DNA of 64,000 bases. Origin: Chryseobacterium gilvum (GTDB taxonomy: Bacteria > Bacteroidota > Bacteroidia > Flavobacteriales > Weeksellaceae). The translations under genes were made by a program, and so were the position numbers. This document shows positions 28,613 through 45,100 of the stretch, in pieces (position 1 is the stretch's first letter; each line of letters opens with the position of its first letter). The stretch lies in the NCBI RefSeq assembly GCF_025628965.1, contig NZ_JAOTEN010000005.1:1-64000 (forward strand), written 5' to 3'. The notes under the pieces are model-generated. The model ran no database searches, was not told the origin of the DNA, and saw nothing but the letters and a program-made list of their open reading frames with translations.

Positions 28613-29395
28613 TTATTTAGATGAAGAACTTCCCAAAGCGACCATTAATGGTTTCTGAATTGTTTTTTGGGAGGCATACTGAGCTCCGCAGACTATGCTT
28701 GTAAGCAAATAATCCCCTTTTTGTATTACAATAGAATTATCACCATGAGCAGGAATAGGAAGCCTGTATTTAGTATTTCCAATGCCATCTATTCTCATGA
28801 TAATATTGCAGTCAGACTTATTCTCAATCATAATAATGCATTCTTTTGCATTAGGGTCATTATCAAACAGAGAGTTCAGTATTTTTACGGTTTTATTTTT
28901 ATGTTCTACCGGGTTATCTGCCATAAGCATATTAAATTCTGCCGCTTCCGTATCTGCAATGGCAACAACGGTTTTTATAGCTGCTGTAGGGGCAACATAG
29001 ACATTCTGAGGTTTGCTGGGAATATATACTACCGCAGACTGGCCAACCTGAAGCTGTTTCTGGTACTTTGCAATCTGTTTTTGCCTGATAATGGCATTCA
29101 TCTCATCAAAAGTAATTTTTGTAGAAGGCTTCCTTTTCAACATGGCAAGCCATTCCTGAATCTGTTTTACTTTCTGATCTCCGGGCGGAGCGGTTTTGAT
29201 ATACTCTTTCATCATGTCCATTACTTTTGGTTTCAGGACAGATCTGCGTGGATCATCTGGATGCGCGTCTCTTAAAAAAGCGTTGATCTCGTAAATACTT
29301 TTGCTTTTCAAAATATTGCTGTAATCTTTGCCTTTCTGTTGGCAAAAAATGCTTACAGATAGTAAAGTGCAAAAGAATATAAGTAACTTTTTCAT
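28613..29395 (-). CDS. secreted protein with the shared C-terminal domain
   Basis: A 260-aa exported protein (signal peptide 1-18, SIFCQ). The first half has a helical section (SIYEINAFLRDAHPDDPRRSVLKPKVMDMMKEY) that resembles the 44408-45100 protein (EARIIAGFLKQNPGHAKTDKLKRRLIDLIM). The last 85 residues repeat the shared domain: LFDNDPNAKECIIMIENKSDCNIIMRIDG, RLPIPAHGDNSIVIQKGDYLLTSIVC. The two proteins thus agree over their whole length, and the 27279 lipoprotein shares only the end. A CAAAGTTA element (29415-29422) precedes the ATG. Function unknown; T9SS signals were not seen. Confidence 0.75.
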   Translation of the reverse strand: MKKLLIFFCTLLSVSIFCQQKGKDYSNILKSKSIYEINAFLRDAHPDDPRRSVLKPKVMDMMKEYIKTAPPGDQKVKQIQEWLAMLKRKPSTKITFDEMNAIIRQKQIAKYQKQLQVGQSAVVYIPSKPQNVYVAPTAAIKTVVAIADTEAAEFNMLMADNPVEHKNKTVKILNSLFDNDPNAKECIIMIENKSDCNIIMRIDGIGNTKYRLPIPAHGDNSIVIQKGDYLLTSIVCGAQYASQKTIQKPLMVALGSSSSK

Positions 29396-29565: not shown

Positions 29566-30354
29566 CTATTTAATAATTTCCTGAAGATGAGAATTTTTCA
29601 GCCTTCGCTGATAGATAGGTACATATTTTTCAATAGGAATTTTTACTGCTTCAAAATTTCCGGACTGTACAAAAACATCAATATTTTCTGAAGTATAGAC
29701 AAACTGCAAAAAATTATCAATAAGATTTTCAGGGATTTTAAATTTGGTAAAATACTCTTTTCCTAAATAATTCTTGATTTGAGTAACGGAAGTATTCATT
29801 CTTTCGTATGCGACATAGCGCTGCTTTTTCTTTCTCTCTCCCGATAAAATATCAAATATACTTTCTAAGCTGAACGTCAAACCACCGTCTCTGAAACCCG
29901 CAACCGGTAAAACAGGAGAACTGCCATCACCTTTCGGTTCCGGCAACCCGATTACCTTTTTTAAGGCATATGCTTTATCTTCTTTCCTTAAAGAATTCAC
30001 ATCATACCGCAAATTTCCGGTGGGCCGGAATCTGTTGATTACCACTTCCTGAATATCATGATATGCAATTTTCAGTTCTACTAAACTTTTAGCATTAAAC
30101 ATCTGCGGAGTAAGGATGATGTCTTTTCTCTCTGTAACAATGGAGGTGAAGCGGATTACATCTCCGGAAGTCGCTTCCAGGCTGAAATCGCCGTTATAAT
30201 TCGTAAGAACGGTTTTTTGTGTGTTGAGATTGGTCACATAAGCCTGATTAAGATATAAAACGGAATTATCTCTTAAAAACACCTGTCCGGAAAAAGTCTG
30301 AGCATTAATTTCAGCAATAAAAATTAACAGTAAAAGGGTAATAAGGTTTTTCAT
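29566..30354 (-). CDS. secreted CarboxypepD_reg-like protein
   Basis: A 262-aa exported protein (signal peptide 1-18, EINAQ). Residues about 19-100 form a carboxypeptidase regulatory-like beta-sandwich (FSGQVFLRDNSVLYLNQAYVTNLNTQKTVLTNYNGDFSLEATSGDVIRFTS), the fold used as the N-terminal plug of many Bacteroidota TonB-linked or surface proteins. The remaining part is basic and unrecognised. A CAAAATTA element (30363-30370) lies just before the ATG. Nothing in its surroundings fixes a role, though it sits at the 3' end of the giant surface-protein array. Confidence 0.72.
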   Translation of the reverse strand: MKNLITLLLLIFIAEINAQTFSGQVFLRDNSVLYLNQAYVTNLNTQKTVLTNYNGDFSLEATSGDVIRFTSIVTERKDIILTPQMFNAKSLVELKIAYHDIQEVVINRFRPTGNLRYDVNSLRKEDKAYALKKVIGLPEPKGDGSSPVLPVAGFRDGGLTFSLESIFDILSGERKKKQRYVAYERMNTSVTQIKNYLGKEYFTKFKIPENLIDNFLQFVYTSENIDVFVQSGNFEAVKIPIEKYVPIYQRRLKNSHLQEIIK

Positions 30355-30496: not shown

Positions 30497-33400
30497 TTAT
30501 TTATCCCACAAATTGTCATTTCGGTGTTTTACCAACAGCCAGCTCGAATATTTCACGGAAGTTATATTGTCGTCTTCTGTCCAGCTTATAAAATACCAAT
30601 AGGTCGCTGTAGGTACAGGTCTGCCTTGCATATTGCCGTCCCAGGTCAGCTTATTTAATTTTTCACCTCTGAATACTTCTGCTCCATATCGGTCAAATAT
30701 TCTGAACTCGATATTTTTCTTATTCATTAGAGAAGAATAATCAATATCATCATTCAATCCGTCTCCGTTTGGCGTGATGGTATTGATGAGGTTGATAACG
30801 ATAAATGGTTTTTTTACAACCTCACATCTTTGGGAATCTCTTACATAGATCGTATTATTTCCTCTCGGAACATTATTAAATATATTAGAATCCTGCCAGC
30901 TGAAACCATCTAAAGAATATTCGTAAGGAGGTATTCCTCCGCTGACTCCAATTGTAACGGTAGTGCCGTTAATGTCTATGGATGTAATTGATGGCAAAGG
31001 AGATTCTGTAACACTTACATTTTGTCTGTAAGCGCATCCGTTGAAAGAAAGATCAACCCAATAATTCCCTACAGGGACATTGTTAATGCTTGGTGTAGTT
31101 GCACCCGTACTCCATAAATAACTGTCAAAACCGGGACCCGCATCAAGGTTGGTTAATGTATTGGTACATATCTTTTTATCGACAAGGATATCAGATTTTT
31201 TAGGCGTTTTTATGGTGATGCTGACTGACCCGATATTCGGACAGGCTCCTGCTTTTTCAAATCGTAAATAATAGGTCTGTGTTCCCGTAGCAGATACGGT
31301 ACTTCCGATAGGTGAAACATCATTTTGAGCATTTGCTAAAGTGGTGTGATAACTTATAGTCACTAAAGGATCTGTAGTAAACTGACTGACATATTGTGCA
31401 AGATTGACCTGTTTAATGCCATCTAAATCGTCATCACAGAAATTGGTAATAACACTGCCTGTCAGCAAAGGAATTTTAGTGTTAACCGCAAAATTCAGAT
31501 TGTCAATCACCGGAGCACACCCGTCCGGAGAATCTACGCGTATATAAATCGTAGTATTGGTGCTGTAGCTCCATGCATTAGGAAGGGTATTATTGTTTCC
31601 TACATTGGCATCAGCTAAAACTGCATAATATCTTACATTGGTAAAATAGGCCGGATTATTAAGCACCTGTTGCGTAATATCAGATAATAAAACATCTACA
31701 ATCCCATCCACATTTTCGTCGCATAATGCAATAACGTTCAATGGAGCTATTACTGCTAAAGGATATACGTTAAGTGTAATTTGTGCGATATTTTTACAAC
31801 CCAGCGAGTTTTTAACCACAGCATACACAATAGTTCCGCCTACAGCAGGATAATTAGTGGGCGTTGCAATAAGCGCGGCTGCATTTTCGGTCTGTGCATC
31901 TGCTAAACTCGGGTAATAGGTGATTGTTACAGGAGAATTCGACGTTACATTGGCTAATGTTAAATTAAAATTTCCCTGCCCGTTATTCAGATTACAAGAG
32001 TTGAGAGTAGCATTCGTTACGGTTAAAGCCTGAATATTTAGAGTGACGGTTACCGTTTCGCAATCAGGGAAATCCGGGTCGTTTCCACAAAATGTATAGG
32101 TAAAAGTATCTGTTCCTGTTGTCCCGGGATTGGTAACATTATAGGTAATAATTCCTGTTGTAGCGTTGATGGTTACAGTTCCCAAAGTTGGAGCCGTTAC
32201 AATGGCTACCGTAGAAACTACCGGTGTTTGTGCGGATGTTGTAAATGTGGGTGTAATGGTTTTGGATGTACAGACATCATATATTGCCGTACTTTGCTTC
32301 GTACAGTTTAAAACTTTATACTGCTCGGTTACCAGAGGTGCACAGCTTCCCAATGTTACTGAACAGGTGTAATACCCTGATTGCGTAGGAGTATAGGATG
32401 CAGATGTTGCGCCGGGTATTAAATTACCGTTCCTGTACCATTGATACGTGTCATAAATAATAGGATCAATTGTAAGTACAATTCCCGGAACGCAATCTCC
32501 GCCTGATTTTAAGATGACCGGCTGCGTTGGAAATCCTGCAAAAAAACCTCCATATCCTACAGCATCACTTCCCGCTGTAATCCCCGCTGTAATCGCTTTG
32601 GTGGAAATTACAGTTATGGTTCCTACCGTATTCGGGATTCCATAGGTAACCCAATTTGGATTTCCCGTCATATCATAAGGGCCTGTAACAGCAGGCGGCG
32701 TGACACCGTTTACGGTAACTACTGCTCCTCTTTCTGTAATTAAATTCAATTTTGTCGGAATGTTTAATACCCCGGAAGGATTTACATTGGTATGAACAAA
32801 ATTTTCATCAATCAATCCTATTTCATTAATTTGCTTCGGAAGATAACAGTTAAGCCCCGGAATAAAATTAAAACCGCCGGTTGCAATCTCATTTCCCACA
32901 CTGGAATTTCCGGCAAGCATCTGATACACATAGGCATTTTTTGTGGTTCTGATGTACAGGTTGTAATGATTGGTACCCTGAAGCTGATATTTGGTATCGG
33001 GAATTACAAAGTATTGTCCCGTATTCAGAGTAGTAACAGGAGTAGCTTCATTGTTAACAAAAACCTGGGTATTATCTTGTGTGGCAATCACCAAAGCTCC
33101 CTCCATATTTGATCCTATGCTTCCATTGCCTTTGACCAGAGCAAACTGGTTTCCCAATTTCTCAACGGGTATAGACTGATCCATCAAAATATCAGAACTG
33201 TTGGGATTATTCCCTGCATACTGACCGTTAAAATTTCCGTTGGTGACATTGACGTCTTTATTGGATGTAATTTTTGCGCCGATAAATCCGTCAAAGTTTC
33301 CCGTAATATTTCCAATTCCGTCGATGATATATGATTGTCCCTTATTAAGGGTAAAAGTCAGGGTAGGATTGGTGGCTCCGGTGGTTCCGTTGGAAAACTG

Positions 33401-33919
33401 AACGGTCGGCTTATATCCCGAAACGGTAACCGTCGTATTGTCTTCCGTAGCCAAAATACTGGTCATAAAATTTAAAATCCCATTGCTCACCGTAATCGGT
33501 GCACTGGCGGTATGAAAATTTTTCCCGATGGAGGCAATGCCTTTAGAAGTGATAATTTCGGCATGATTAAAAACCGAAAATCTCAGATTGGCGTAAAAAG
33601 GAAATTCTGCTTTCACATATATCCCTTTTGTGGTGGGAGTAAATAGATCTGCCTGCAGTGTGGTAATAATATAATCTCTTAAAACATCAAATTTCTGAGG
33701 ATTGTTTTTGCTGATGGTTACTGTACCTATTAAAACATTATTGTTATAAATGCTTACCGGAAAAGGAGTGGTGCGGTTAGTTGATAAGTATAGTTTTTGA
33801 TAAGGATTGGGATTTCCCGTACGGTCTACCATAGGCGCAAACCAGTGATCTCTATCCAGCTGTGCGAATGTGATAGAGAATATAAAAAAAATAAGAAAAA
33901 AAGATAAAATTTTCTTCAT
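30497..33919 (-). CDS. giant T9SS type B surface protein, copy 1 (long form)
   Basis: A 1140-aa exported protein: signal peptide 1-19; IgGFc_binding-type N-terminal domain (about 24-470, opening DRDHWFAPM, with SILATEDNTTVTV and GYGGFFAGF); an Ig-like domain with TYQWYRNGNLIPGAT and SGYYTCSV; a cadherin-like/Big_9 segment (TGTDTFTYTF); a long-form module with two CDxDxDGI stretches (about 732-905, 31205-31726); an LDAGPGFDSYLWSTGATT repeat block; and the CHU_C domain (about 1043-1140, LINTITPNGDGLND) that sends it through T9SS as type B. Type B proteins are held on the surface, commonly as adhesins. It is the last of four tandem minus-strand copies. A CAAATTTA element (33939-33946) precedes its ATG. 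Ligand unknown; IgG binding is not implied. Confidence 0.88.
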   Translation of the reverse strand: MKKILSFFLIFFIFSITFAQLDRDHWFAPMVDRTGNPNPYQKLYLSTNRTTPFPVSIYNNNVLIGTVTISKNNPQKFDVLRDYIITTLQADLFTPTTKGIYVKAEFPFYANLRFSVFNHAEIITSKGIASIGKNFHTASAPITVSNGILNFMTSILATEDNTTVTVSGYKPTVQFSNGTTGATNPTLTFTLNKGQSYIIDGIGNITGNFDGFIGAKITSNKDVNVTNGNFNGQYAGNNPNSSDILMDQSIPVEKLGNQFALVKGNGSIGSNMEGALVIATQDNTQVFVNNEATPVTTLNTGQYFVIPDTKYQLQGTNHYNLYIRTTKNAYVYQMLAGNSSVGNEIATGGFNFIPGLNCYLPKQINEIGLIDENFVHTNVNPSGVLNIPTKLNLITERGAVVTVNGVTPPAVTGPYDMTGNPNWVTYGIPNTVGTITVISTKAITAGITAGSDAVGYGGFFAGFPTQPVILKSGGDCVPGIVLTIDPIIYDTYQWYRNGNLIPGATSASYTPTQSGYYTCSVTLGSCAPLVTEQYKVLNCTKQSTAIYDVCTSKTITPTFTTSAQTPVVSTVAIVTAPTLGTVTINATTGIITYNVTNPGTTGTDTFTYTFCGNDPDFPDCETVTVTLNIQALTVTNATLNSCNLNNGQGNFNLTLANVTSNSPVTITYYPSLADAQTENAAALIATPTNYPAVGGTIVYAVVKNSLGCKNIAQITLNVYPLAVIAPLNVIALCDENVDGIVDVLLSDITQQVLNNPAYFTNVRYYAVLADANVGNNNTLPNAWSYSTNTTIYIRVDSPDGCAPVIDNLNFAVNTKIPLLTGSVITNFCDDDLDGIKQVNLAQYVSQFTTDPLVTISYHTTLANAQNDVSPIGSTVSATGTQTYYLRFEKAGACPNIGSVSITIKTPKKSDILVDKKICTNTLTNLDAGPGFDSYLWSTGATTPSINNVPVGNYWVDLSFNGCAYRQNVSVTESPLPSITSIDINGTTVTIGVSGGIPPYEYSLDGFSWQDSNIFNNVPRGNNTIYVRDSQRCEVVKKPFIVINLINTITPNGDGLNDDIDYSSLMNKKNIEFRIFDRYGAEVFRGEKLNKLTWDGNMQGRPVPTATYWYFISWTEDDNITSVKYSSWLLVKHRNDNLWDK

Positions 33920-33974
33920 TCAGGTATTGCATTGACAACAAATTTAATAATAAAAAGTATTATCTGCTAAAAAA

Positions 33975-34007
33975 TAAACAAAAAACCGCGATATAAAATC
34001 GCGGTTT
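33975..34007 (-). terminator. terminator of surface-protein copy 2
   Basis: AAACCGCGAT (33983-33992) pairs with ATCGCGGTTT (33998-34007), and the A-run on plus is the T-run of the minus transcript. It separates copy 2 from copy 1. Confidence 0.9.
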
Positions 34008-34030
34008 CATTTTAATATGGTAAGAATAAC

Positions 34031-36865
34031 CTATTCTCTGTTTTTAACCAAGATCCAGCCCGAATATTTTACAGGAGTCTGATTCTTATTATTTTCGTTC
34101 CAGCTTATGCTGTACCAGTAGCTCCCTGTAGAAACTTTTTTGCTTCCGTTGGTGGTTCCGGCCCATTTGTATCCGTTTTCTTTATTTCCCTGATAAATTT
34201 TGGTTCCATACCGGTCAAAAATATCAAAGATCAGATTAGGTTTTCCCGCAAGTGCAGAATAATCCAGGATATCATTTACCCCGTCACCATTTGGTGTGAT
34301 AACATTAATTAAATTAGGAACCGTAATCCCGATTTCTATTGGCTCACAATCATAAGCATCTTTTACATATACATTGATCTCTCCTCTCGGCAGATTTGAA
34401 AATACATTAGAATCCTGCCAGTTGATATTGTCTATTGAGTATTGATAAGGAAGGGTTCCTGAAACGACACTTACAGAGATTCCGTTATTGTCAATATTTA
34501 CATTCGAAATAACCGGCTGTTCAGAAGCATATACTTTTACGTTCTGTCTTGTAATACAATCTCCTTTTTTTAAATTTACCCAATATGTACCTACTCCTAC
34601 ATTAGAAATAGACTGCGTAATTGCACCGGTACTCCAGAGATATCCGTCAAAACCGATTCCGGCATCTAATGTTGTTTTATCTTCTATACAGATAATTTTA
34701 TCAACTAAAACGGTAGAAAATACTGGAGGGAGAACAACTAAAGTAACTTCGGCTACTCTGTAACATCCGTTAGCGTTGGTAACTCTGATGTATACCACGC
34801 CATTCGGGGCAATATATGCAGAAGGGTTGGTAATTTCGTTGGTTCCGTTTACCGCATCCGTAGGGGAAGGATAATACTTTTTAGTAACTCCGGGCTGCGA
34901 TGTTACGGTAGCAACTGTAAGATTAAACAACGCGGTAGAAGGGTTGGCTTCAAGAAAACAGGATCTTAATATTGCACTGTTTACAATCGGGCTTTCTGAG
35001 ACCGTAAGATTTAAGGTGATCTTTTCACAATCAATAAATTCGGGGGCGTTCCCGCAGAATCTGTAAACAATGGTATCTGTACCTGCAAATCCAAAATTCG
35101 GAGTATAGCTGATAATTCCTGTGGTAGGATTCACACTCGCCGTTCCATTGGCCGGTGATGTAAGAATCTGAACTGTTGCAGGAACAAAATTTTGAGTGGA
35201 TGAGGTAAATTCCGGTACAATCGTTAAATACCCTTCACAGACCGTTTTAGCAATAGTCGTTTCTTTAAGACAGGTAAACACTTTATACACCGGTGTAAAT
35301 ACAGGAGGACAAGATCCTACTGTAATTCTGACCGTATAATTCCCTGCCAGATTCGGAGTGTAAGAATTGGTAGTTGCACCCGGAATCGGGGTGTTATTAA
35401 AATACCATTGATACGTTTCAAAACTGTCATCCACTTCTAGAACAATACCGGGAATGCAATCTCCCGTTTGCTTTGCGATAACAGGAATCGAAGAAAATCC
35501 TGCAAAATAACCACCATATCCTACAACGCCACTCCCGCCGGAAATTCCCGCGGTTACTGCTTTTGTGGAAGTAATGGTCATATTCCCCGAAACGTTCGGT
35601 ACAGAATACGAAACCCAATTTGCGGTGCCTGTTACAGGATAAGGTCCCTGTACAGTGGGAGGTGTCGCTCCGTTTACGGTAACAGCGGCTCCTGCTTCCG
35701 TTAAGATATTCAGCTTTACATTATTCGTAGTGGGAGGGAGGATATTAATCAGCCCTATTTCATCAATTTTCCTTGGAAGATAACAGTTCAATGGCGGAAC
35801 ATAATTAAATCCTATCGTTGCGTTACTTGCTGCAACCCCTGCAAGAAGCTGGTAAACATATACGTTTTTCGTTGTTTTAATGTACATATTGTAATGCTCG
35901 TTGCCTTGATTGATATAATTGGTGTTGCTCAGCTGATTTACTCTATAGCTGTCGCCTTCGCCCAATGTGGTAACCGGTGTAGGATTATTATTGATGAAAA
36001 CCTGTGTATTGTTCTCCGTCGCTACGATTAAAGCATCTTCCATTCTCTCATTGATGTTGCCATTTCCTTTTACAAGAACAAACTCGTTTCCTAAACGGTC
36101 TACGGGTACAGACTGATCCATCACAATATCTGATCCGTCAAATGAAGTGGTCAAGGCAAACTGCCCGTTAAAATTTCCATTGGTTACCGAAATGGGTTTG
36201 TTGGCAACAATTTTTGCTCCGATAAACCCTTTCCTGTTTCCCTGTTTATCTCCTACTCCTTCTATGACGTAAGATTGTCCTTTATTTAAGGTGAAAGTAA
36301 GGGTAGGATTTGTAATTCCGGTCCATCCGTTGGTAAAAATCACATCCGGAGAATAGTCGGAAACCGTCACCGTGGTATTGTCTTCTGTTGCCAGAATTCC
36401 GGTTGTAAAATTCAGGATTGTAGAAGGGTTTTCAATAGGAGAAACTACTGCGTAAAATGTGGTTCCGATCCCTGCTTTTCCTTTAGAGGTTAAGATTTCT
36501 CCATGGCTCAGTACTGAAAATCTCAAGGTAACAAAATAAGGCTTTGTACCTTTTGTGTATAAACCTTTATTAACAGGATTAAACAAATCTGAAGTATTGC
36601 TGACAATTATATTTCCTAACGGCACTGTAAATGTTTGTGGATTTCCCTTACTTACCGTTACCGTTCCTATCACCACATTATTGCTGAAAATCTGAACCGG
36701 GAAAGGGGTTATAGAATCGGTAGAAAAATATAAAGCCTGTTGCGGACTGCTGAGATTGGTAGATCTTGCTGCCATTGGTGCAAACCAATGATCTGTATCC
36801 CGCTGAGCAAACAGCGTATTAATTGTTGAAAAAATTAATAATAAAGAGAGTAAAAGTTTTCTCAT
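34031..36865 (-). CDS. giant T9SS type B surface protein, copy 2 (short form)
   Basis: A 944-aa paralog of its neighbours. The frame reaches a TTG at 36871, but the ATG at 36865 opens the usual signal peptide (MRKLLLSLLLIFSTINTLFAQ). It has the IgGFc_binding-type domain (DTDHWFAPMAARS, GILATEDNTTVTVSDY, VGYGGYFAGFSS), an Ig-like part with DSFETYQWYFNNTPIPGAT, a Big_9-type segment (AGTDTIVYRFCGN), the LDAGIGFDGYLWSTGAIT block and the CHU_C domain (about 851-944, NVITPNGDGVNDILDYS). The 174-residue module of copies 1 and 4 is absent. It has its own promoter (36890-36921) and terminator (33975-34007), so it may be expressed independently. Predicted role: surface attachment or gliding-related adhesion. 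Confidence 0.88.
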   Translation of the reverse strand: MRKLLLSLLLIFSTINTLFAQRDTDHWFAPMAARSTNLSSPQQALYFSTDSITPFPVQIFSNNVVIGTVTVSKGNPQTFTVPLGNIIVSNTSDLFNPVNKGLYTKGTKPYFVTLRFSVLSHGEILTSKGKAGIGTTFYAVVSPIENPSTILNFTTGILATEDNTTVTVSDYSPDVIFTNGWTGITNPTLTFTLNKGQSYVIEGVGDKQGNRKGFIGAKIVANKPISVTNGNFNGQFALTTSFDGSDIVMDQSVPVDRLGNEFVLVKGNGNINERMEDALIVATENNTQVFINNNPTPVTTLGEGDSYRVNQLSNTNYINQGNEHYNMYIKTTKNVYVYQLLAGVAASNATIGFNYVPPLNCYLPRKIDEIGLINILPPTTNNVKLNILTEAGAAVTVNGATPPTVQGPYPVTGTANWVSYSVPNVSGNMTITSTKAVTAGISGGSGVVGYGGYFAGFSSIPVIAKQTGDCIPGIVLEVDDSFETYQWYFNNTPIPGATTNSYTPNLAGNYTVRITVGSCPPVFTPVYKVFTCLKETTIAKTVCEGYLTIVPEFTSSTQNFVPATVQILTSPANGTASVNPTTGIISYTPNFGFAGTDTIVYRFCGNAPEFIDCEKITLNLTVSESPIVNSAILRSCFLEANPSTALFNLTVATVTSQPGVTKKYYPSPTDAVNGTNEITNPSAYIAPNGVVYIRVTNANGCYRVAEVTLVVLPPVFSTVLVDKIICIEDKTTLDAGIGFDGYLWSTGAITQSISNVGVGTYWVNLKKGDCITRQNVKVYASEQPVISNVNIDNNGISVSVVSGTLPYQYSIDNINWQDSNVFSNLPRGEINVYVKDAYDCEPIEIGITVPNLINVITPNGDGVNDILDYSALAGKPNLIFDIFDRYGTKIYQGNKENGYKWAGTTNGSKKVSTGSYWYSISWNENNKNQTPVKYSGWILVKNRE

Positions 36866-36889
36866 AAGCAAAAAATATTATGGTTTTTA

Positions 36890-36921
36890 CAAAAATAGCA
36901 GAATATTTATAATGTTTGCAA
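36890..36921 (-). promoter_or_regulatory. promoter of surface-protein copy 2
   Basis: On the minus strand, TTG (CAA at 36919-36921) and TATTTTTG (CAAAAATA at 36890-36897) are 21 bases apart, a full match to the Bacteroidota promoter. The ATG of copy 2 at 36865 is 24 bases downstream. Confidence 0.7.
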
Positions 36922-36950
36922 TATTTTTTAGAATCTGTATTGCAGATATA

Positions 36951-36982
36951 AAAAAGCCACGATAATTATTTATCGTGGCTTT
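36951..36982 (-). terminator. terminator of surface-protein copy 3
   Basis: A 13-bp perfect stem (AAAGCCACGATAA with TTATCGTGGCTTT) around a TTAT loop, plus an A-run on plus. It ends copy 3 before the promoter of copy 2. Confidence 0.92.
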
Positions 36983-36997
36983 GTAGTTTATATTGAA

Positions 36998-39817
36998 TTA
37001 TTCTCTGTTTTTTACCAAGATCCAACCGGTATATTTTATTGGAGTCTTCGCGGCATTCGGCTCATTCCAGTTGATATGATACCAATATGTTCCGGTCTGT
37101 ATTTTCTTGTCAAAATGCTTCCCGTCCCACTTATAATCGTTGAATTTATCTCCCGTAAATATCTTGTTCCCGTATCGGTCGTAGATTACAAAAGTAAGAT
37201 TCAGTTTATAAGATAATTCGCTGTAGTCGATAAAATCGTTTACATTATCACCGTTTGGAGTAATGGCATTCAATAAATTAGGAACCGTAATTTCTGTAGA
37301 GGTTGGGGTACAGTCATATGCGTCTTTTACATAGAATGTATGCTGCCCTCTGGAAAGACCGGTAAATACATTTGAATCCTGCCAAACGGTAATTCCGTCA
37401 ACAGCAAATTTATAAGGTGCTTTTCCGCCGTTTACCATCACTGTTGCAGTCGTGTTTGATATTTCAATAGAGGTAATTACAGGATCCGGAGTTTTCTTCA
37501 CGTTGACGATCTGTGTTACAAAACATCCGTTATTTTCAAGTTTCACCCAATATTCTCCTACCGGAACGCCCTGAATGCTTTGTGTTGTTGCTCCTGTATT
37601 CCATAAATAGCTGCTGTAACCAGGACCTGCATCTAGATCTGTTCTGTCATCAATACAAATGTATTTATCAACCAATGTCGGCGATTTTTTAATAGGAATC
37701 GCAATCAGCGTAATTTTTGCGTTGGCAGAACATCCTTCGGCTGTGGTTACTTTTACATACACAAAGCCCCCTGCGGAAAGATACGTTGTAGGATTGGTAA
37801 TGATATTTTGATTGGTATTCAGATCATTTAAAGTCGGGTAAAATACTTTAACAGCTGCATTGTAGGTTGTTACCGCTGCCGATGTTAAATCAAATACCGC
37901 TTTATCAGCAAAGTTACATGAGGTCAATGTTTTATCATTTACAACAAATGGAACAATATTTAAATTTAAGGTAATTTCTTCACAATCCGTAAATTCAGTG
38001 GCATTCCCGCAGAATCTGTATACGATTTTATCTGGTCCTAAATATCCCGCTGTCGGTACATAGGTAATAGTTCCTGTAGAGGTATTCAGAGTGGCAGTAC
38101 CATGGGTAGGCTGTGTAAGGATAATTACCGTACTTGGAACCGGACTTTGGGTTGAGCTCGTAAAGGCAGGTACAATTAAAGTCGTTCCACAGATATTTAA
38201 AGATTTCGTAGTTAATTTCAAGCAAGGATATACCTTGTAGATAGGTGTTGTAACCGGCGGACAAGTTCCTACGGTCACTTTACAAGTATAGTTTCCTGCA
38301 GCAGTTGGTGTAAAGGTATGTGAGGTCGCTCCCGGAATGGCAACACCATTTAAGAACCACTGATAAGTATCATAGCTGTCATCCACTTCAAGAATAATTC
38401 CTGGTACACATTCTCCCGTTTGTTTAGAAATGATAGGGATCGAAGAGAATCCGGCAAAATATCCTCCATATCCTGCGGTGCTGTATCCTCCGTTAATTCC
38501 GGCAGTTACTGCCTTATTGGATTCAATGGTAACATTCCCTGTAATGTTTTCAACAGCGTATGTTACCCATGTTGCGTTACCGGTAAGAGGATATGGTCCC
38601 TGTGCAGCAGTAGGTGCGACACCATTTACAGTTACAGTCGCTCCTGCTTCGGTCAAGATATTCAGTTTGACATTGATCCCGCCGCTTCCAATGGTAGGCA
38701 TTTCGTTAATTTTCCCTATCTCATCAATCTTACGAGGTAAAAAACAGCTTAAAGGCGGGATAAAATTATATCCTCCCGTATTATTGGCTGATCCTACTCC
38801 GACTAACTGATAAAGATAAATATTTTTTGAGGCAGTCACCAACATATTGGCGTGTCCGTTTGTGCCTTGATTTACATAATTTGTTTCATCAATTCTGTAA
38901 AATTGGCCCTCATTCAAAGTGGTCAGAGGAGTTGTAGATCCATTTACAAATATCTGGGTATTGTTTTCTGTAGCAATAACAATTCCACCTTCCATGTTTT
39001 CACTCGGTTCAGTCGATCTCGTTTTTACCATTGCAAAAGTGCTTCCTAATCTTTCCACCGGAACAGACTGATCTAAGATTAAATCTGAACCTGAGCTGCT
39101 GCCTGCTCCAAAATTACCATTTGAGTTACCATTGGTTACACTGATGGGTTTATCAGAAACAATTTTAGCCCCGATAAATCCGGTTCTGTTGGCAACTGTG
39201 GTTGTATTTCCTGAAAAAATGAAAGATTGCCCTTTATTTAAATTGATCGTATGAGTGGTTCCTGTAGGATTTCCATTGATAAATACCAATCCGGCAGTAG
39301 TCCATGTGGTCGTCACTACTGTATTGTCTTCGGTGGCAAGAATACCTACCGTAAAGTTATTTCCAGTAAAGTTGGTCGGTGTATAAGCGGCATAAAATAA
39401 TTTCCCGATTCCAGCTTTTCCTTTGCTGGTCACAATTTCACCATGAGAACTTACCGCAGATCTAAGAGTAGCAAAAAAAGGTTTATCCCCTCTTACGTAC
39501 AGCCCTTTTGTAATATTGGTAAAGGCATCCGTCAATGAGCTGGCTCTTATCAAGTCAACTCCGGCCGTAACCGGTAAAGTAAATACCTGCGGATTGTTTT
39601 TACTGATCGTTGATGTTCCTACCACCGTACTCCCTGTACCGTTGTAGATGGTAACAACAAATGGGGTTACAGAATCGGTAGATAAATATAATGCGTTGGT
39701 GTATGAGCTACCCGAAACATCATAATATGGTGCAAACCAGTGATCTGTATCTCTTTGTGCAAAAAGCGTACTTGCGGTACAGAAAAATAATATAAAACTG
39801 AGTAGAAATCTTTTCAT
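36998..39817 (-). CDS. giant T9SS type B surface protein, copy 3 (short form)
   Basis: A 939-aa paralog with signal peptide 1-20 (TASTLFAQ), IgGFc_binding-type domain (DTDHWFAPYYDVSG, VGILATEDNTVVTT), Ig-like part (DSYDTYQWFLNGVAIPGAT), Big_9-type segment (LGPDKIVYRFCGN), the LDAGPGYSSYLWNTGATT block and CHU_C end (LLNAITPNGDNVNDFIDYS). It is the same short form as copy 2, lacking the CDxDxDGI module. Only 79 bases and no hairpin separate it from copy 4, so the two may be co-transcribed, though a CAAAATTA element (39841-39848) precedes its ATG. Copies 2 and 3 look most alike, which suggests they arose from a later duplication. Expression and ligand are unknown. Confidence 0.87.
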   Translation of the reverse strand: MKRFLLSFILFFCTASTLFAQRDTDHWFAPYYDVSGSSYTNALYLSTDSVTPFVVTIYNGTGSTVVGTSTISKNNPQVFTLPVTAGVDLIRASSLTDAFTNITKGLYVRGDKPFFATLRSAVSSHGEIVTSKGKAGIGKLFYAAYTPTNFTGNNFTVGILATEDNTVVTTTWTTAGLVFINGNPTGTTHTINLNKGQSFIFSGNTTTVANRTGFIGAKIVSDKPISVTNGNSNGNFGAGSSSGSDLILDQSVPVERLGSTFAMVKTRSTEPSENMEGGIVIATENNTQIFVNGSTTPLTTLNEGQFYRIDETNYVNQGTNGHANMLVTASKNIYLYQLVGVGSANNTGGYNFIPPLSCFLPRKIDEIGKINEMPTIGSGGINVKLNILTEAGATVTVNGVAPTAAQGPYPLTGNATWVTYAVENITGNVTIESNKAVTAGINGGYSTAGYGGYFAGFSSIPIISKQTGECVPGIILEVDDSYDTYQWFLNGVAIPGATSHTFTPTAAGNYTCKVTVGTCPPVTTPIYKVYPCLKLTTKSLNICGTTLIVPAFTSSTQSPVPSTVIILTQPTHGTATLNTSTGTITYVPTAGYLGPDKIVYRFCGNATEFTDCEEITLNLNIVPFVVNDKTLTSCNFADKAVFDLTSAAVTTYNAAVKVFYPTLNDLNTNQNIITNPTTYLSAGGFVYVKVTTAEGCSANAKITLIAIPIKKSPTLVDKYICIDDRTDLDAGPGYSSYLWNTGATTQSIQGVPVGEYWVKLENNGCFVTQIVNVKKTPDPVITSIEISNTTATVMVNGGKAPYKFAVDGITVWQDSNVFTGLSRGQHTFYVKDAYDCTPTSTEITVPNLLNAITPNGDNVNDFIDYSELSYKLNLTFVIYDRYGNKIFTGDKFNDYKWDGKHFDKKIQTGTYWYHINWNEPNAAKTPIKYTGWILVKNRE

Positions 39818-39896
39818 GTGAAATTGAATTAGGATTTCTACAAAATTAAAACAAAATTTAATATATTGTTAATAAATCTTAAAGAATGTTGAAAGA

Positions 39897-42800
39897 TTAT
39901 TCTCTATTCTTAATTAAAAGCCATCCCGAGTACGAAACTGGTAATTTGGTATCCGGCTCAATCCATTTCAGAATATACCAATACGTACCTGTTGGAAGAG
40001 TTCTTCCGGCAGATTTTCCGTCCCAGATATAATTTTTATCTGAAGATTTATAAACTGCTGCCCCGTATCTGTCTACTATTTCGATGCTTACATCTTGTTT
40101 TATCCTTAAATCAGAATAGTTCAGTACATCATTCCTTCCGTCACCATTAGGAGTAATAGCATTGATGAGGTTCAGAACTAAAAATTCTTTGCGTACTGGC
40201 TGACAGCCGTCTGCCGACAAAACATATATCGTATGAATTCCTCTTGTTAAACCTGTAAAAATATTAGAAGTCTGATAATCATAGCCATTCAGCGAGTATT
40301 GATACGGTGCTGTTCCGCCGGAAACGTTAACAGTTGCATTAGGTCCTGTTACCACAATGCTCGTGATCGTTGGAGATTGTGCGGTGGTTACCGTTACGGT
40401 TTGTCTGTATATACACCCATTAAACCCTAAATCTACATAATAATTCCCCGCACCAACACTGATGGTCTGTGTCGTGGCACCCGTACTCCAAAGATAAGAT
40501 GTAAATCCGGAGCCTGCATCCAAAACAGCCTGCTCACCAGAACAGACCACCTGATCTCTTAAAACATCAGATTTTTTCCCGGCTTTCAAAGTGATTTTAA
40601 GGGTTCCTATATTGGGACAGCTTGTAGGGCTTGTAAATCTTACATAAAAAGTACTGGTGGTTGTGATAATCTGTGAAGCAGCTATTGCATTTACACCAGC
40701 CTGTGCATCGGCTAATGTTGAATGAAAAGTTAGGACCACTGCAGGATCAGCAGTAAACTGGTTTTTGTAATCATTGAGATTGACTGTTTCAGAACCATTC
40801 AGATCAGTATCGCACACTTGTGTGTTAACAAGTGTGGTAAGTAAGGGTATTTTATTTCCGACTGTGAAATTTATCTGCCCAAATACGGGAGGACAATTGT
40901 TATTGCTGTCTACTCTTACGTAAACTGTAGTATTGGAAGTATAAGTCCAGTTAGAAGGAAGTGTATTGTTGTTTCCCGCGGTGGCATCTGCCTGAACGAG
41001 GTAGTATCTTACATTAAAATTAGCAGAATTCGAAACAATCTGCGGAGTAACCGTTGTAAAGTTGACGCTGATAATTCCGTCAAAGTTATCATCACAAAGA
41101 CTGGCATTATAATTTGCCGTATTGATGTTGGGAGCAGGGCTTAATGTCAAAGTAATCTGAGCTGTTTTTGAACAGCCATACGCTGAAGTCACATTTGCAT
41201 ATACTATCCCTGAACCGGAATTATAAGCGGCCGGAGTTGTAATCGGTTGTGTTAATGCCGCATCAGAAAAATAACTTACAGTAGTTCCCGCATCCGGGGT
41301 GACCCCTGCGCTGGTCAGGTTAAATGTTCCGCTTCCTGAAGCATTGGTACACGAAGTAAGCGTAGCATTATTAGTCTGTAAAACATCAATATTCATATTG
41401 ATTTTAAAATATTCAAAATCAGCAGGATTGCCATTGCCCTGGATGTAATAAGTAAAGGTATCGGTAGTATCTGTGGTGAGTCCTGGATTAGGAGTATAGG
41501 TAATCTGTCCGTTTGCAGGGTTAATTGTTGCCGTTCCTGAAGTAGGCGCTACAATGATGCTGGTATTTGCTGGGGTAACCATTTGTGTAGAAGCTGTAAA
41601 AACGGGGGTGATTACTTTTGTGTTGCAAGATCCTATCGTATATGTCGTTGTAGATATAGGAGGACAAACCGTATACGCGTACGGATTTGTCAGTTTAGAA
41701 TCACAGTTGTTTTTAGTAATCAAACACGTGTAATTTCCTGCGCCATACAATTCCGGGTTGATAGAATAGGAGATTGCTCCGGGAATAGGATTTCCATTCA
41801 GAAACCACTGATAGGCATCATATGTATTATCTACCTGCAAAATAACGCCGGTATAACAATCCCCGGTTTTTGAAATCGAAGGAACGGAAGAAAATCCCGC
41901 AAAATAACCGCCATATCCTACCGCGCCGCTTCCACCGGTAATACCTGCTGTCACAGATTTTGTAGAGTTTACGGTAACATTTCCCGTAATATTCGGGATA
42001 GAGTAGGATACCCAATTCGGATTTCCTGTTACCGGATAAGGTCCGTTTGCCGAAATAATCGGGTTCCCGTTGATGGTAACTGTTGCACCGGTTTGGGTAA
42101 TAATATTAAGTTTAGTATTGTACGTTTGAAAACCGATCCGGTTGATAAAACCGATCTCATCAATTTTATTAGGTAAAAAACAGCTCAATGGCGGAATATA
42201 ATTAAATCCTCCGGTTGCGTAGATGGTCCCTGTGGAAACACCTGCTAGTAATTGATAAACATAAATATTTTTCGTTGAAGAAATACTCATGTTGTAATTA
42301 TTATTCCCCTGATTGTTGTAGGCCGCTCCGGGAACCATAAAATATTCTCCTTCATTCAATGTAACTCCAGAATAAACACCGTTTACATTAACAGGAGTAT
42401 TGTTTTCGGTAGCAATCACTAAAACCGTTTCCATTCCCGATGTTGCAGGTCCGTTTCCTTTTACCACAACAAAATCTTTACCGAGCCGGTCTGTAGGGAC
42501 AGCCTGATCCATCAGAATATCATTATTGGTAAAATTCTGATTGGTATAAATGGCGTTAAAATTACCATTGGTTACAGAAATGGGTTTTGTAGATTCAATT
42601 TTAGCGCCTACCAATCCGTCAAAATTGGCGGTTCCATCTGTGCTTATGGCATCCAGAATGTAAGACTGGCCTTTATTCAGGGTAAAAGTTTTGGTAGCAG
42701 AAGAGGTTCCGTCAGAAAAAACCACGGCAGGATCATAACCGGAAACCACAACGTTTGTATTGTCTTCAGTGGCAGTAACGCCAATTGTTGAATTGATATA

Positions 42801-43238
42801 AAATTCACCCGCTGTAAGCGGAGCCATAGCGGCATAAAATTTTGTTCCTAATCCGGCTAAGCCTTTTGAGGTGATAATTTCAGCATGATTGGTGACCGAA
42901 AAACGGTAATTGGCAAAAAATTTCTTCGGCCCTTTCACATACATTCCCATAGAATTGGGTGTCAGAATATCAGACTGATCCGTAGCCAGTAAAAAATTAC
43001 CGGGGATATCGACCTGCTGAGGGTTTCCTTTACTGATCTGTACGGTGGTATAAAGCGTATTGCTGTTATAAATCTGTACGGAAAAAGGTGTAACCTCATT
43101 TGTCGACAGGTACAAATAACTTTGTAACCCATTGGTACCGGCTCTTGCCGCCATTGGAGCAAACCAATGATCCGTATCCAATTGAGCATTCACGACTACA
43201 CAAAGAAATGTAAAGATACTTAGTAAAAATTTTTTCAT
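39897..43238 (-). CDS. giant T9SS type B surface protein, copy 4 (long form)
   Basis: A 1113-aa paralog, first of the array in the transcription direction. Signal peptide 1-18 (VVNAQ); IgGFc_binding-type domain (DTDHWFAPMAARAG, GVTATEDNTNVVV, VGYGGYFAGFSS); Ig-like part (NTYDAYQWFLNGNPIPGAI, GNYTCLIT); Big_9-type segment (TDTTDTFTYYIQGNG); a long-form module (about 40581-41103) with LCDDNFDGI and VCDTDLNGS; LDAGSGFTSYLWSTGATT; and CHU_C end (LINAITPNGDGRNDVLNYS). Like copy 1 it carries the module missing from copies 2 and 3. A CAAATTTA element lies at 43258-43265. It is predicted to sit on the surface after T9SS export; adhesion is the usual role of such proteins but is not shown here. Confidence 0.88.
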   Translation of the reverse strand: MKKFLLSIFTFLCVVVNAQLDTDHWFAPMAARAGTNGLQSYLYLSTNEVTPFSVQIYNSNTLYTTVQISKGNPQQVDIPGNFLLATDQSDILTPNSMGMYVKGPKKFFANYRFSVTNHAEIITSKGLAGLGTKFYAAMAPLTAGEFYINSTIGVTATEDNTNVVVSGYDPAVVFSDGTSSATKTFTLNKGQSYILDAISTDGTANFDGLVGAKIESTKPISVTNGNFNAIYTNQNFTNNDILMDQAVPTDRLGKDFVVVKGNGPATSGMETVLVIATENNTPVNVNGVYSGVTLNEGEYFMVPGAAYNNQGNNNYNMSISSTKNIYVYQLLAGVSTGTIYATGGFNYIPPLSCFLPNKIDEIGFINRIGFQTYNTKLNIITQTGATVTINGNPIISANGPYPVTGNPNWVSYSIPNITGNVTVNSTKSVTAGITGGSGAVGYGGYFAGFSSVPSISKTGDCYTGVILQVDNTYDAYQWFLNGNPIPGAISYSINPELYGAGNYTCLITKNNCDSKLTNPYAYTVCPPISTTTYTIGSCNTKVITPVFTASTQMVTPANTSIIVAPTSGTATINPANGQITYTPNPGLTTDTTDTFTYYIQGNGNPADFEYFKINMNIDVLQTNNATLTSCTNASGSGTFNLTSAGVTPDAGTTVSYFSDAALTQPITTPAAYNSGSGIVYANVTSAYGCSKTAQITLTLSPAPNINTANYNASLCDDNFDGIISVNFTTVTPQIVSNSANFNVRYYLVQADATAGNNNTLPSNWTYTSNTTVYVRVDSNNNCPPVFGQINFTVGNKIPLLTTLVNTQVCDTDLNGSETVNLNDYKNQFTADPAVVLTFHSTLADAQAGVNAIAASQIITTTSTFYVRFTSPTSCPNIGTLKITLKAGKKSDVLRDQVVCSGEQAVLDAGSGFTSYLWSTGATTQTISVGAGNYYVDLGFNGCIYRQTVTVTTAQSPTITSIVVTGPNATVNVSGGTAPYQYSLNGYDYQTSNIFTGLTRGIHTIYVLSADGCQPVRKEFLVLNLINAITPNGDGRNDVLNYSDLRIKQDVSIEIVDRYGAAVYKSSDKNYIWDGKSAGRTLPTGTYWYILKWIEPDTKLPVSYSGWLLIKNRE

Positions 43239-43373
43239 GCCTAAATTTGAAGGGCGACAAATTTAAGCATTAATAATCAAATTTTTACATAAATTTTTTA
43301 ATCTATCGTTTGATGCATTAGGAATATCATAAAATTAAGATACAGGTCATAAAAAATTAATATAGCAATACCA

Positions 43374-43409
43374 TCATAAAAAATCCCGGTAGAAATTTCC
43401 ACCGGGATT
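43374..43409 (-). terminator. terminator of tsf
   Basis: AATCCCGGT pairs with ACCGGGATT around a 10-nt AT-rich loop; the A-run on plus (T-run in the transcript) follows. It lies 22 bases after the tsf stop. Confidence 0.88.
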
Positions 43410-43431: not shown

Positions 43432-44259
43432 TTATGTTAAGCTTACTCTTACAAATCCTGTTACTTTAAGATCTCCGTTTACAGATTTTACATAATCAGC
43501 AACAGACATCCCGCCGTCTTTAATGAAAGACTGGTGTACCAGAGTATTTTCTTTGTAGAATTTTTGCATTTTACCTTTAAGGATGTTATCGATAATATTG
43601 GCAGGTTTTCCTTCTTTAGTCAGTAATTCTCTTTCAATTTCCAATTCTTTATCGATTGTCTCCTGAGAAACCATCGTTTCGTCAAGCGCAATAGGGTTCA
43701 TGGCAGCAACCTGCATAGAAACAGATTTTGCAGCTTCGTCTGCACCGTCTACTTTTGCAGAAAGTGAAGTGATTGCAGCAATTTTGTTTCCGGCATGGAT
43801 GTAAGCGCCTAAGTAAGGTCCTGTGATTCTTTCGAATGCACCGATCTCGATTTTTTCACCGATTACCCCAGTTTGCTCGATTAATTTTTCAGCAACAGTT
43901 ACTCCGTGGAAATCTGTAGCCAACAATTCTTCTTTAGTTGCAGCAAAAACAGCCATCTCAGCCAATTCGTACGCTAACTCAATAAAAGCTTCATTTTTAG
44001 CAACAAAATCAGTCTCACAGTTTAAAGAAATGATCGTACCTAAAGTATTATCTTCGTTTACTCTTGCGATTACAGCACCTTCAGAAGACTCTCTGTCTGC
44101 TCTGTTAGCCGCTACTTTCTGACCTTTTTTTCTAAGGATATCTACTGCTTTTTCGAAATCTCCTTCTGCTTCAACTAAAGCTTTTTTGCAGTCCATCATA
44201 CCTGCACCTGTTTGGTTTCTCAATTTTGCTACGTCTGCAGCAGCTGGTGTATAAGACAT
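43432..44259 (-). CDS. tsf: translation elongation factor Ts
   Basis: A 275-aa nucleotide-exchange factor for EF-Tu. The UBA-like N-terminus VAKLRNQTGAGMMDCKKALVEAEGD and the core GTIISLNCETDFVAKNEAF are family signatures. A minus-strand TATCTTTG element (CAAAGATA on plus at 44322-44329) lies 62 bases upstream of its ATG. In most bacteria tsf directly follows rpsB; here it is isolated and points the other way, with the surface-protein array between the two. The chain is intact and has its own terminator, so it should be functional. Confidence 0.97.
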   Translation of the reverse strand: MSYTPAAADVAKLRNQTGAGMMDCKKALVEAEGDFEKAVDILRKKGQKVAANRADRESSEGAVIARVNEDNTLGTIISLNCETDFVAKNEAFIELAYELAEMAVFAATKEELLATDFHGVTVAEKLIEQTGVIGEKIEIGAFERITGPYLGAYIHAGNKIAAITSLSAKVDGADEAAKSVSMQVAAMNPIALDETMVSQETIDKELEIERELLTKEGKPANIIDNILKGKMQKFYKENTLVHQSFIKDGGMSVADYVKSVNGDLKVTGFVRVSLT

Positions 44260-44407: not shown

Positions 44408-45100
44408 ATGAAAAAAATATTTCTAATTATATTCTTATGCATATTCAGTCTGGGCTTCTCCCAAAAGAAGAAAAAAGCTAAATCTAAAGTAGTGGCCGAA
44501 AAGGAGACCGCGATTATATATACTGAAGCTGAAGCAGAAAGTACCAATGAAGCGAGAATTATCGCAGGTTTTTTGAAGCAAAACCCGGGTCATGCTAAAA
44601 CCGATAAACTGAAAAGAAGATTGATCGATCTCATCATGGCAGATAATTCACCGGAAGCCAAACCGACGATCAAACCGATCAGTAAAGATAAGATTGCAAA
44701 AATTGTAAGCAATAGTGAACTTAACAAACCGGCCGCATCAAATTCAAAAGCAGCGACACCCGCAAGAGATGTTAGTTTTGCAAGTACAGGGACAGCTGTA
44801 AAAAAATCTGAACCCAGCGAGAAAAGCAAAAAGACTGCAGCGATGCTCACTCACCTTTTTAATAATGACCCAAGTGATAAGGAAGCATATATCAATATTA
44901 AAAATAAATCCAACTGCAGACTGATTGTAAAAATCAGCGGCAAAAAATATTATAATCTCGATGTTCCGGCAAAAGGGCAGAATTTTATCCTGATTGATAA
45001 AGGAGAATATATTTTAACAACCATGGTGTGTGATGCAAAATATTCTTCCCTCAAGAAGATTACGAAAGATATCGAGCTTGAGTTGAATGTGTCTGATTAA
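44408..45100 (+). CDS. secreted protein with the shared C-terminal domain
   Basis: A 230-aa exported protein (signal peptide 1-18, LGFSQ). A Lys-rich stretch follows, then a helical part (EARIIAGFLKQNPGHAKTDKLKRRLIDLIM) like that of the 28613-29395 protein, a Lys/Ser/Thr-rich linker, and the shared C-terminal domain (LFNNDPSDKEAYINIKNKSNCRLIVKISG, YNLDVPAKGQNFILIDKGEYILTTMVC). It lies on the opposite strand, upstream of tsf, on the other side of the giant surface-protein array from its two paralogs. The pattern suggests an old local duplication or a set of proteins that share a partner. Function unknown. Confidence 0.73.
   Translation: MKKIFLIIFLCIFSLGFSQKKKKAKSKVVAEKETAIIYTEAEAESTNEARIIAGFLKQNPGHAKTDKLKRRLIDLIMADNSPEAKPTIKPISKDKIAKIVSNSELNKPAASNSKAATPARDVSFASTGTAVKKSEPSEKSKKTAAMLTHLFNNDPSDKEAYINIKNKSNCRLIVKISGKKYYNLDVPAKGQNFILIDKGEYILTTMVCDAKYSSLKKITKDIELELNVSD

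Follow-up and report, generated by a model that had tools for sequence, protein, structure and literature searches.

A stretch of 64,000 nucleotides from Chryseobacterium gilvum (hereafter the window) holds four consecutive genes which, with a probability of roughly 0.7, form a tandem array of surface proteins exported by the type IX secretion system (T9SS), in which the heads are replaced as cassettes by recombination at two motifs and the bodies that belong to each slot are inherited vertically. A comparison of 36 genomes, consisting of the source and 35 genomes of the same genus (one genome per species), demonstrates at the level of sequence: i) a cassette-like replacement of heads with borders at two conserved motifs; ii) tails that are fixed by slot; iii) a constant last gene, D; and iv) a variable copy number. 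In the mechanism that we propose, each protein would consist of a signal peptide, a beta head of about 420 residues (IgGFc_binding), an Ig-like stalk and a type B C-terminal domain (CTD), and would be transcribed separately. Homologous recombination at the motifs DTDHWFAP and GYGGYFAGF would swap the head, the signal peptide, stalk and CTD of the slot being passed on vertically, and the new head would come from the slot next to it, from a related species or, possibly, from a satellite locus. D would be the constant member and A and the middle slots the variable ones, and a new head would alter what the surface binds or what recognises the cell, with export undisturbed.

Four genes with a common head and sorting domain

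A row of four genes of 939-1140 codons on one strand had been described in an earlier note on this DNA, and the open reading frames are found exactly at 30497-43238, consecutively and all on the minus strand, in the transcription order A, B, C, D:

39897..43238, minus strand: gene A, 1113 aa, the first gene of the array, beside tsf; signal peptide, IgGFc_binding head, stalk with an extra repeat block, type B CTD
36998..39817, minus strand: gene B, 939 aa, first middle slot; tail class b, head class B
34031..36871, minus strand: gene C, 946 aa, last middle slot; tail class c, head class C
30497..33919, minus strand: gene D, 1140 aa, last gene, single copy in 36 of 36 genomes; head conserved and not exchanged

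Gene C probably starts at its third codon, the ATG at 36865, in preference to the TTG. The four proteins are 51-55% identical to each other and can be aligned over their full length, and a genome-wide profile search recovered them as the only PF17517 genes of the genome. The label "giant" that had been attached to them is generous for proteins of 939-1140 residues.

The common domain order that had been read from the sequence was retained at both ends and only partly in between. All four heads match the PF17517 IgGFc_binding profile (E-values 1e-36 to 1e-41; 124.5-141.8 bits against a gathering score of 25.6), and the C-terminal CHU_C/TIGR04131 sorting domain scores above its curated cut-off in all four proteins (51.9-64.1 bits against 35; E-value 1.2e-14 in gene C), in agreement with the proposed T9SS type B sorting. 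Within the region between head and tail, Ig-like domains find partial support, as Big_9 passes its cut-off in B and C only and the matches to Ig_2 in D and B stay under the cut-off. The cadherin-like domain is not supported, no cadherin profile scoring above its cut-off in A-D (the best is Cadherin_5 in B; E-value 0.8, 10 bits against 26.5), and the extra repeat block of about 180 residues is restricted to A and D, B and C being without it. An N-terminal Sec signal peptide, with a positive N-terminus, a hydrophobic stretch and an AQ junction, was recognised in all four translations by eye. The name of the IgGFc_binding family stems from an animal mucus protein, and as a name inherited from there it offers no basis to assume that these heads bind IgG Fc.

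Transcription signals and flanking genes

A promoter-like element of the Bacteroidota type, TAnnTTTG, is situated 18-23 nt ahead of the start of each of the four genes, and direct reading of the sequence gave three terminator-like hairpins, the last of which parts tsf from the array. These signals and the fixed flanks are:

43258..43265, minus strand: TAnnTTTG promoter-like -7 element of gene A
39841..39848, minus strand: TAnnTTTG promoter-like element of gene B
36890..36897, minus strand: TAnnTTTG promoter-like element of gene C
33939..33946, minus strand: TAnnTTTG promoter-like element of gene D
36950..36982, minus strand: terminator-like hairpin and T-run after gene B
33980..34007, minus strand: terminator-like hairpin and T-run after gene C
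43378..43406, minus strand: terminator-like hairpin and T-run after tsf
43432..44259, minus strand: tsf (elongation factor Ts), the fixed upstream flank
29566..30354, minus strand: BamP-like periplasmic/outer-membrane protein, the fixed downstream flank (41.6 bits, below the equivalog cut-off of 230)

Because every gene has its own promoter-like element and terminator-like hairpins follow B and C, A-D are probably separate transcription units. Among the relatives, the element occurs within 120 nt upstream of 102 of the 123 array genes, against 14.4 expected from shuffling.

Downstream, the array is followed by the BamP-like protein, a DUF6759-like protein and trmB. The BamP-like protein adjoins D in every genome that has the flank and is perhaps a paralogue of a component of outer-membrane barrel assembly. 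Proteins of the two flanks are also related to one another (28613-29395 and 44408-45100): the DUF6759 protein beyond tsf and the unnamed protein beside trmB can be matched over a part of their sequences, at about 28-46%.

Export machinery and other type B proteins of the genome

Type B CTDs direct the export and targeting of putative adhesins (PMC12618676, PMC9143113), and PorP and SprF are connected to anchoring (PMC9143113). A-D have the same signal peptide, modular ectodomain and TIGR04131/CHU_C C-terminus as the type B substrates SprB and Fjoh_3952 of Flavobacterium johnsoniae and PG1035 of Porphyromonas gingivalis (PMC12618676, PMC9143113). In substrates of this kind the CTD sets export and localisation, so that heads are freely exchangeable; the tandem array with IgGFc_binding heads sets the present locus apart from them.

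The genome encodes 13 type B CTD proteins and a single PorP/SprF gene above cut-off (G000:C1:39956-40870; L190), and no PorP/SprF gene adjoins the array. Each of 20 Chryseobacterium genomes likewise contains one PorP/SprF (split over two contigs in G001). In F. johnsoniae 9 of the 12 type B CTD genes neighbour a shuttle, whereas in the present genome there is one PorP/SprF for 13 type B CTD genes. An adjacent shuttle is usual but not obligatory, since orphan type B substrates have been documented, which in F. johnsoniae share one shuttle (PMC12618676). By analogy, A-D would probably be exported and anchored via the only PorP/SprF of the genome.

Contig C3 contains four more type B CTD genes (G000:C3:200770-217850; L009) in two pairs, one pair with short N-terminal heads of another kind and one with legume-like lectin heads (PF03388, verified for one of the genes). 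Between the pairs lies an island with a KAP-like P-loop ATPase and a transposase-like gene. In the tail tree, these genes group as sisters of tail c and of the array's rare third tail. A tail identity of 71-73% had suggested recent ectopic conversion between the lectin-head genes on C3 and the array, which was rejected: the tails form clades of their own per locus throughout the genus, and the sharing of tails between the array and C3 is therefore old.

The array across Chryseobacterium

The array site (tsf ... bamP-like, trmB) is common to all 35 same-genus genomes. The fixed copy number and uniform divergence that the earlier note had weighed against a recombining array were not encountered: heads and bodies diverge unequally, and the number of genes per array ranges from 2 to 6 among the 36 genomes, examples being B-D (G002, G020, G023 and G029) and A-A-B-C-C-D (G019). 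Per genome there are 0-2 copies of A and 1-3 middle genes; the single D is monophyletic in the head tree as well as in the tail tree. Decayed remnants of A and of c-type genes lie between the intact genes in several genomes.

A second type of variation at the locus concerns the length of gene A, which runs from 1111 to 1619 aa among species, the longer forms having extra stalk (L046, L056, L057, L061, L070, L075 and L081).

PF17517 is present in 39 of 148 genomes of the order, the genus itself counted, and outside Chryseobacterium it occurs mostly as one or two genes per genome. In some relatives, satellite PF17517 type B genes were found at other loci (L191-L199), which are possible donors of heads. 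Two satellite genes of G018 are closest to the odd array head of their own genome, at 72-73% on the amino acid level only, and this is the best match of a satellite gene to an array head within one genome.

Heads and tails have separate histories

The head tree splits the middle genes into classes B and C, and the tail tree (based on the C-terminal 225 residues) groups them by position in the array: b for the first and c for the last middle gene, with p as a rare third tail. All combinations of head B or C with tail b or c were recovered (Bb 28, Bc 10, Cb 7, Cc 14), together with Cp (3). For gene C, the modules and borders that matter in the following are:

35531..36799, minus strand: exchangeable head cassette, residues 25-447, one predicted all-beta domain
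36776..36799, minus strand: 5' cassette border with the DTDHWFAP motif, residues 25-32; 5' breakpoints map just after it
35495..35521, minus strand: 3' cassette border with the GYGGYFAGF motif, residues 451-459, at the low-confidence hinge 449-451; site of the 3' breakpoints
34034..34708, minus strand: tail c, the C-terminal module specific to this position, residues 722-946, with the CHU_C/TIGR04131 sorting domain in it; used for the tail tree

A single origin was rejected by AU tests for the heads on tail b (p=1.9e-5), for the tails with head B (p=5e-5) and with head C (p=9e-6), and for the A tails with head type I (p=8e-4); as the groups were named after the trees had been seen, these p values should be taken as a guide and not as a strict test. 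By parsimony the head tree requires the tail label to change at least 5 times, and the tail tree requires the head label to change at least 8 times. With such conflict between head and tail trees (AU p 8e-4 to 9e-6) and with breakpoints that bound the head, the suggestion that the array is a substrate for recombination yielding variants was upheld, on the scale of differences between species. Some of the Bc genes carry a deep third head lineage, and therefore not all discordant genes are recent swaps. In the group of G001, G011 and G031 the third-slot head is derived from a second-slot head.

Head identity is only weakly correlated with an independent species distance taken from tsf, bamP-like and trmB (r=0.25 in A, 0.49 in b and 0.43 in c); body identity is strongly correlated with it (0.79 in A, 0.80 in b and 0.67 in c). 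Two controls are coherent, namely gene D (r 0.73 for the head and 0.83 for the body) and a type B gene with a lectin head from a different locus (r 0.84 for the head and 0.80 for the tail), and the decoupling is therefore confined to the variable slots. D takes no part in the exchange of heads.

The A heads come in two types, I and II, that recur in distant species on species-specific tails, and within a type the head identity is at the vertical level (82% for G005-G015, with D at 81%; 85% for G006-G032, with D at 87%). Such a pattern would suit a trans-species balanced polymorphism, in which at least two old head alleles per slot are kept by frequency-dependent selection (phage, predator, immune or kin recognition) and recombination homogenises the flanks. 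However, a transfer between species, with the donor outside the sample, accounts for these data too, the sample contains one genome per species, and B heads have also been copied between slots (G026; the G001/G011/G031 group), so that we regard this explanation as possible but unlikely. More doubtful still is a recognition system based on head alleles. In such a system the fixed tail of each slot would give the protein a place of its own on the cell, and the head alleles, few in number and very old, would circulate among the species of Chryseobacterium. They would be subject to frequency-dependent selection by phage, predator, host or kin recognition, and D would be the invariant partner of the variable heads.

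Breakpoints at conserved borders

Cassette replacement of heads is visible in pairs of close relatives: the signal peptide (about 30 residues at the N-terminus) and the body, with identities of 84-99% and 81-90%, are close to the species level, and the head, with 57-67%, is not. On the nucleotide level, these values (signal peptide/head/body) are 99/63/90% for gene A of G005/G006 (D 93%), 93/57/82% for the third gene of G001/G018, 84/58/81% for the second gene of G022/G004 and 95/67/85% for the b-slot gene of G033/G019. Fits with two breakpoints raised the log-likelihood by 75-174 in these four pairs, compared with gains of 6-11 for their D genes and of no more than 17 for shuffles; the gain for G016/G030 was 41, with a clear border on the 3' side only. 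In the numbering of C, the breakpoints lie at residues 30-34 and, for the most part, at 429-451, the fitted 3' border of G001/G018 being earlier (around residue 357), and identity profiles change sign around residues 440-490 of C, where the head ends. Contig breaks fall inside the array in some of the drafts (G033, G034); mosaic combinations are also present between finished or nearly finished genomes, at lower species identity.

These pairs bear on a plain birth-and-death of paralogues, by which apparent mosaics would result from hidden paralogy and fast-evolving heads and no heads would be exchanged. The variation in copy number, the decayed A and c-type remnants between intact genes, and the faster divergence of middle-gene heads as compared to D heads all fit this scenario. 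Yet hidden paralogy cannot explain why sister species have a head that is not orthologous between a signal peptide and a body that are, as in G005/G006, and co-inheritance is rejected by the AU tests and identity shifts at sharp borders; being contradicted for the listed pairs, birth-and-death is quite improbable.

The lowest site entropies in the proteins coincide with the borders of the cassette: 0.3 bit at residues 21-30 (DTDHWFAP) and 0.0 bit at residues 451-460 (GYGGYFAGF). We infer that these conserved borders serve as the homology for recombination. Since the motif borders coincide with the ends of the domain, swapped heads would still fold and be exported.

For most head replacements no donor of high identity was found. 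Within the genome of G026, the head of one middle gene was copied onto another middle gene: the two are identical over the first 218 nt, 82-85% identical up to about residue 499 and 61% identical thereafter. Apart from this case and the two A copies of G019, exact tracts of at least 40 nt shared between copies within one genome are rare, and recent homogenisation of whole genes within genomes was rejected accordingly. The G026 tract, and the presence of tandem paralogues with conserved borders, would be in line with antigenic variation from silent cassettes, whereby one expressed gene takes heads from silent copies within the lifetime of a single strain. This is nevertheless highly improbable, given the rarity of such tracts, the signal peptide, full reading frame and promoter-like element that all copies possess, and the terminator-like hairpins after B and C. 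The own promoter-like site and intact reading frame of each gene rather argue for co-existing expressed genes than for one expression site with silent copies.

Selection

Pairwise dN/dS values were 0.04-0.17 throughout and never exceeded 1. Head residues 40-100 of the tail-b genes change fastest (median dN/dS 0.17 versus 0.06 for the body); middle-gene heads diverge faster than D heads, and the head of D is more conserved than its body. Positive selection on residues was considered and found unsupported, pairwise dN/dS being <0.2 everywhere. The turnover of heads may reflect selection on recognition.

Predicted structure and putative ligands

The AlphaFold2 model of gene C has a mean pLDDT of 85, with low confidence at the signal peptide and at residues 449-451 only. 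Modelled alone (residues 23-460; pLDDT 89.6, pTM 0.91), the head forms a compact, single all-beta domain that ends at the 3' border. A profile comparison of its second and third unit revealed an internal repeat. A fold search with the whole head gave no match over the full domain, and no sequence relatives of solved structure were found. The first unit (model residues 2-111) superposes on TM1070 (Z 10.4, rmsd 3.4, 99 residues), the prototype of a domain that is predicted to bind sugars (PMC2739507), and in the fold search it also resembles domains of alpha-2-macroglobulin and complement. The first head unit is like the ASRAH/TM1070 sugar-binding beta-sandwich (PDB 1nc7, PMC2739507) in fold; no sequence match and no Pfam match were found, and the resemblance covers one head unit. 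The stalk of gene C (residues 458-856) resembles Ig-like repeats, among them those of Aureispira GhpA (Z around 8). The GhpA grappling hook (PDB 9flv, 9g8b) shares these Ig-like stalk domains; it is far longer (numbered past residue 5000), and the likeness does not show a common function.

The behaviour of type B substrates and the weak fold resemblance together suggest a role in adhesion, most likely to glycans: the heads would face outward and bind ligands, probably glycans.

Relation to known systems and implications

The closest published analogue that we found is the domain rearrangement and allelic exchange in P. gingivalis, where recombination has likewise made mosaics of surface proteins (Kgp, RgpA, HagA and FimA, several of them T9SS-exported) that are unrelated to strain phylogeny (PMC5266723). 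In that pathogen the exchange takes place between strains, at several kinds of loci that include gingipain and fimbrial ones, whereas in Chryseobacterium one N-terminal head cassette, bordered by fixed motifs, is exchanged in a tandem array at a fixed site with an invariant D, and across the species of a genus. A literature search, subscription papers not covered, retrieved no published account of this array; nothing was found on IgGFc with type IX secretion or with Chryseobacterium, and IgGFc-binding with Bacteroidetes led to host and gut-microbiome papers only.

Few ligands are known for type B T9SS proteins, which are known or presumed adhesins, and the array naturally separates the parts: a constant module for export and placement from an exchangeable head with mapped borders, with the head of D held constant. 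A design in which heads are swapped and tails are kept would thereby offer a route to the ligands of PF17517 heads and to the drivers of their turnover. The locus also supplies 36 natural variants, and it shows that one PorP/SprF shuttle is compatible with a large number of type B substrates in the same genome.
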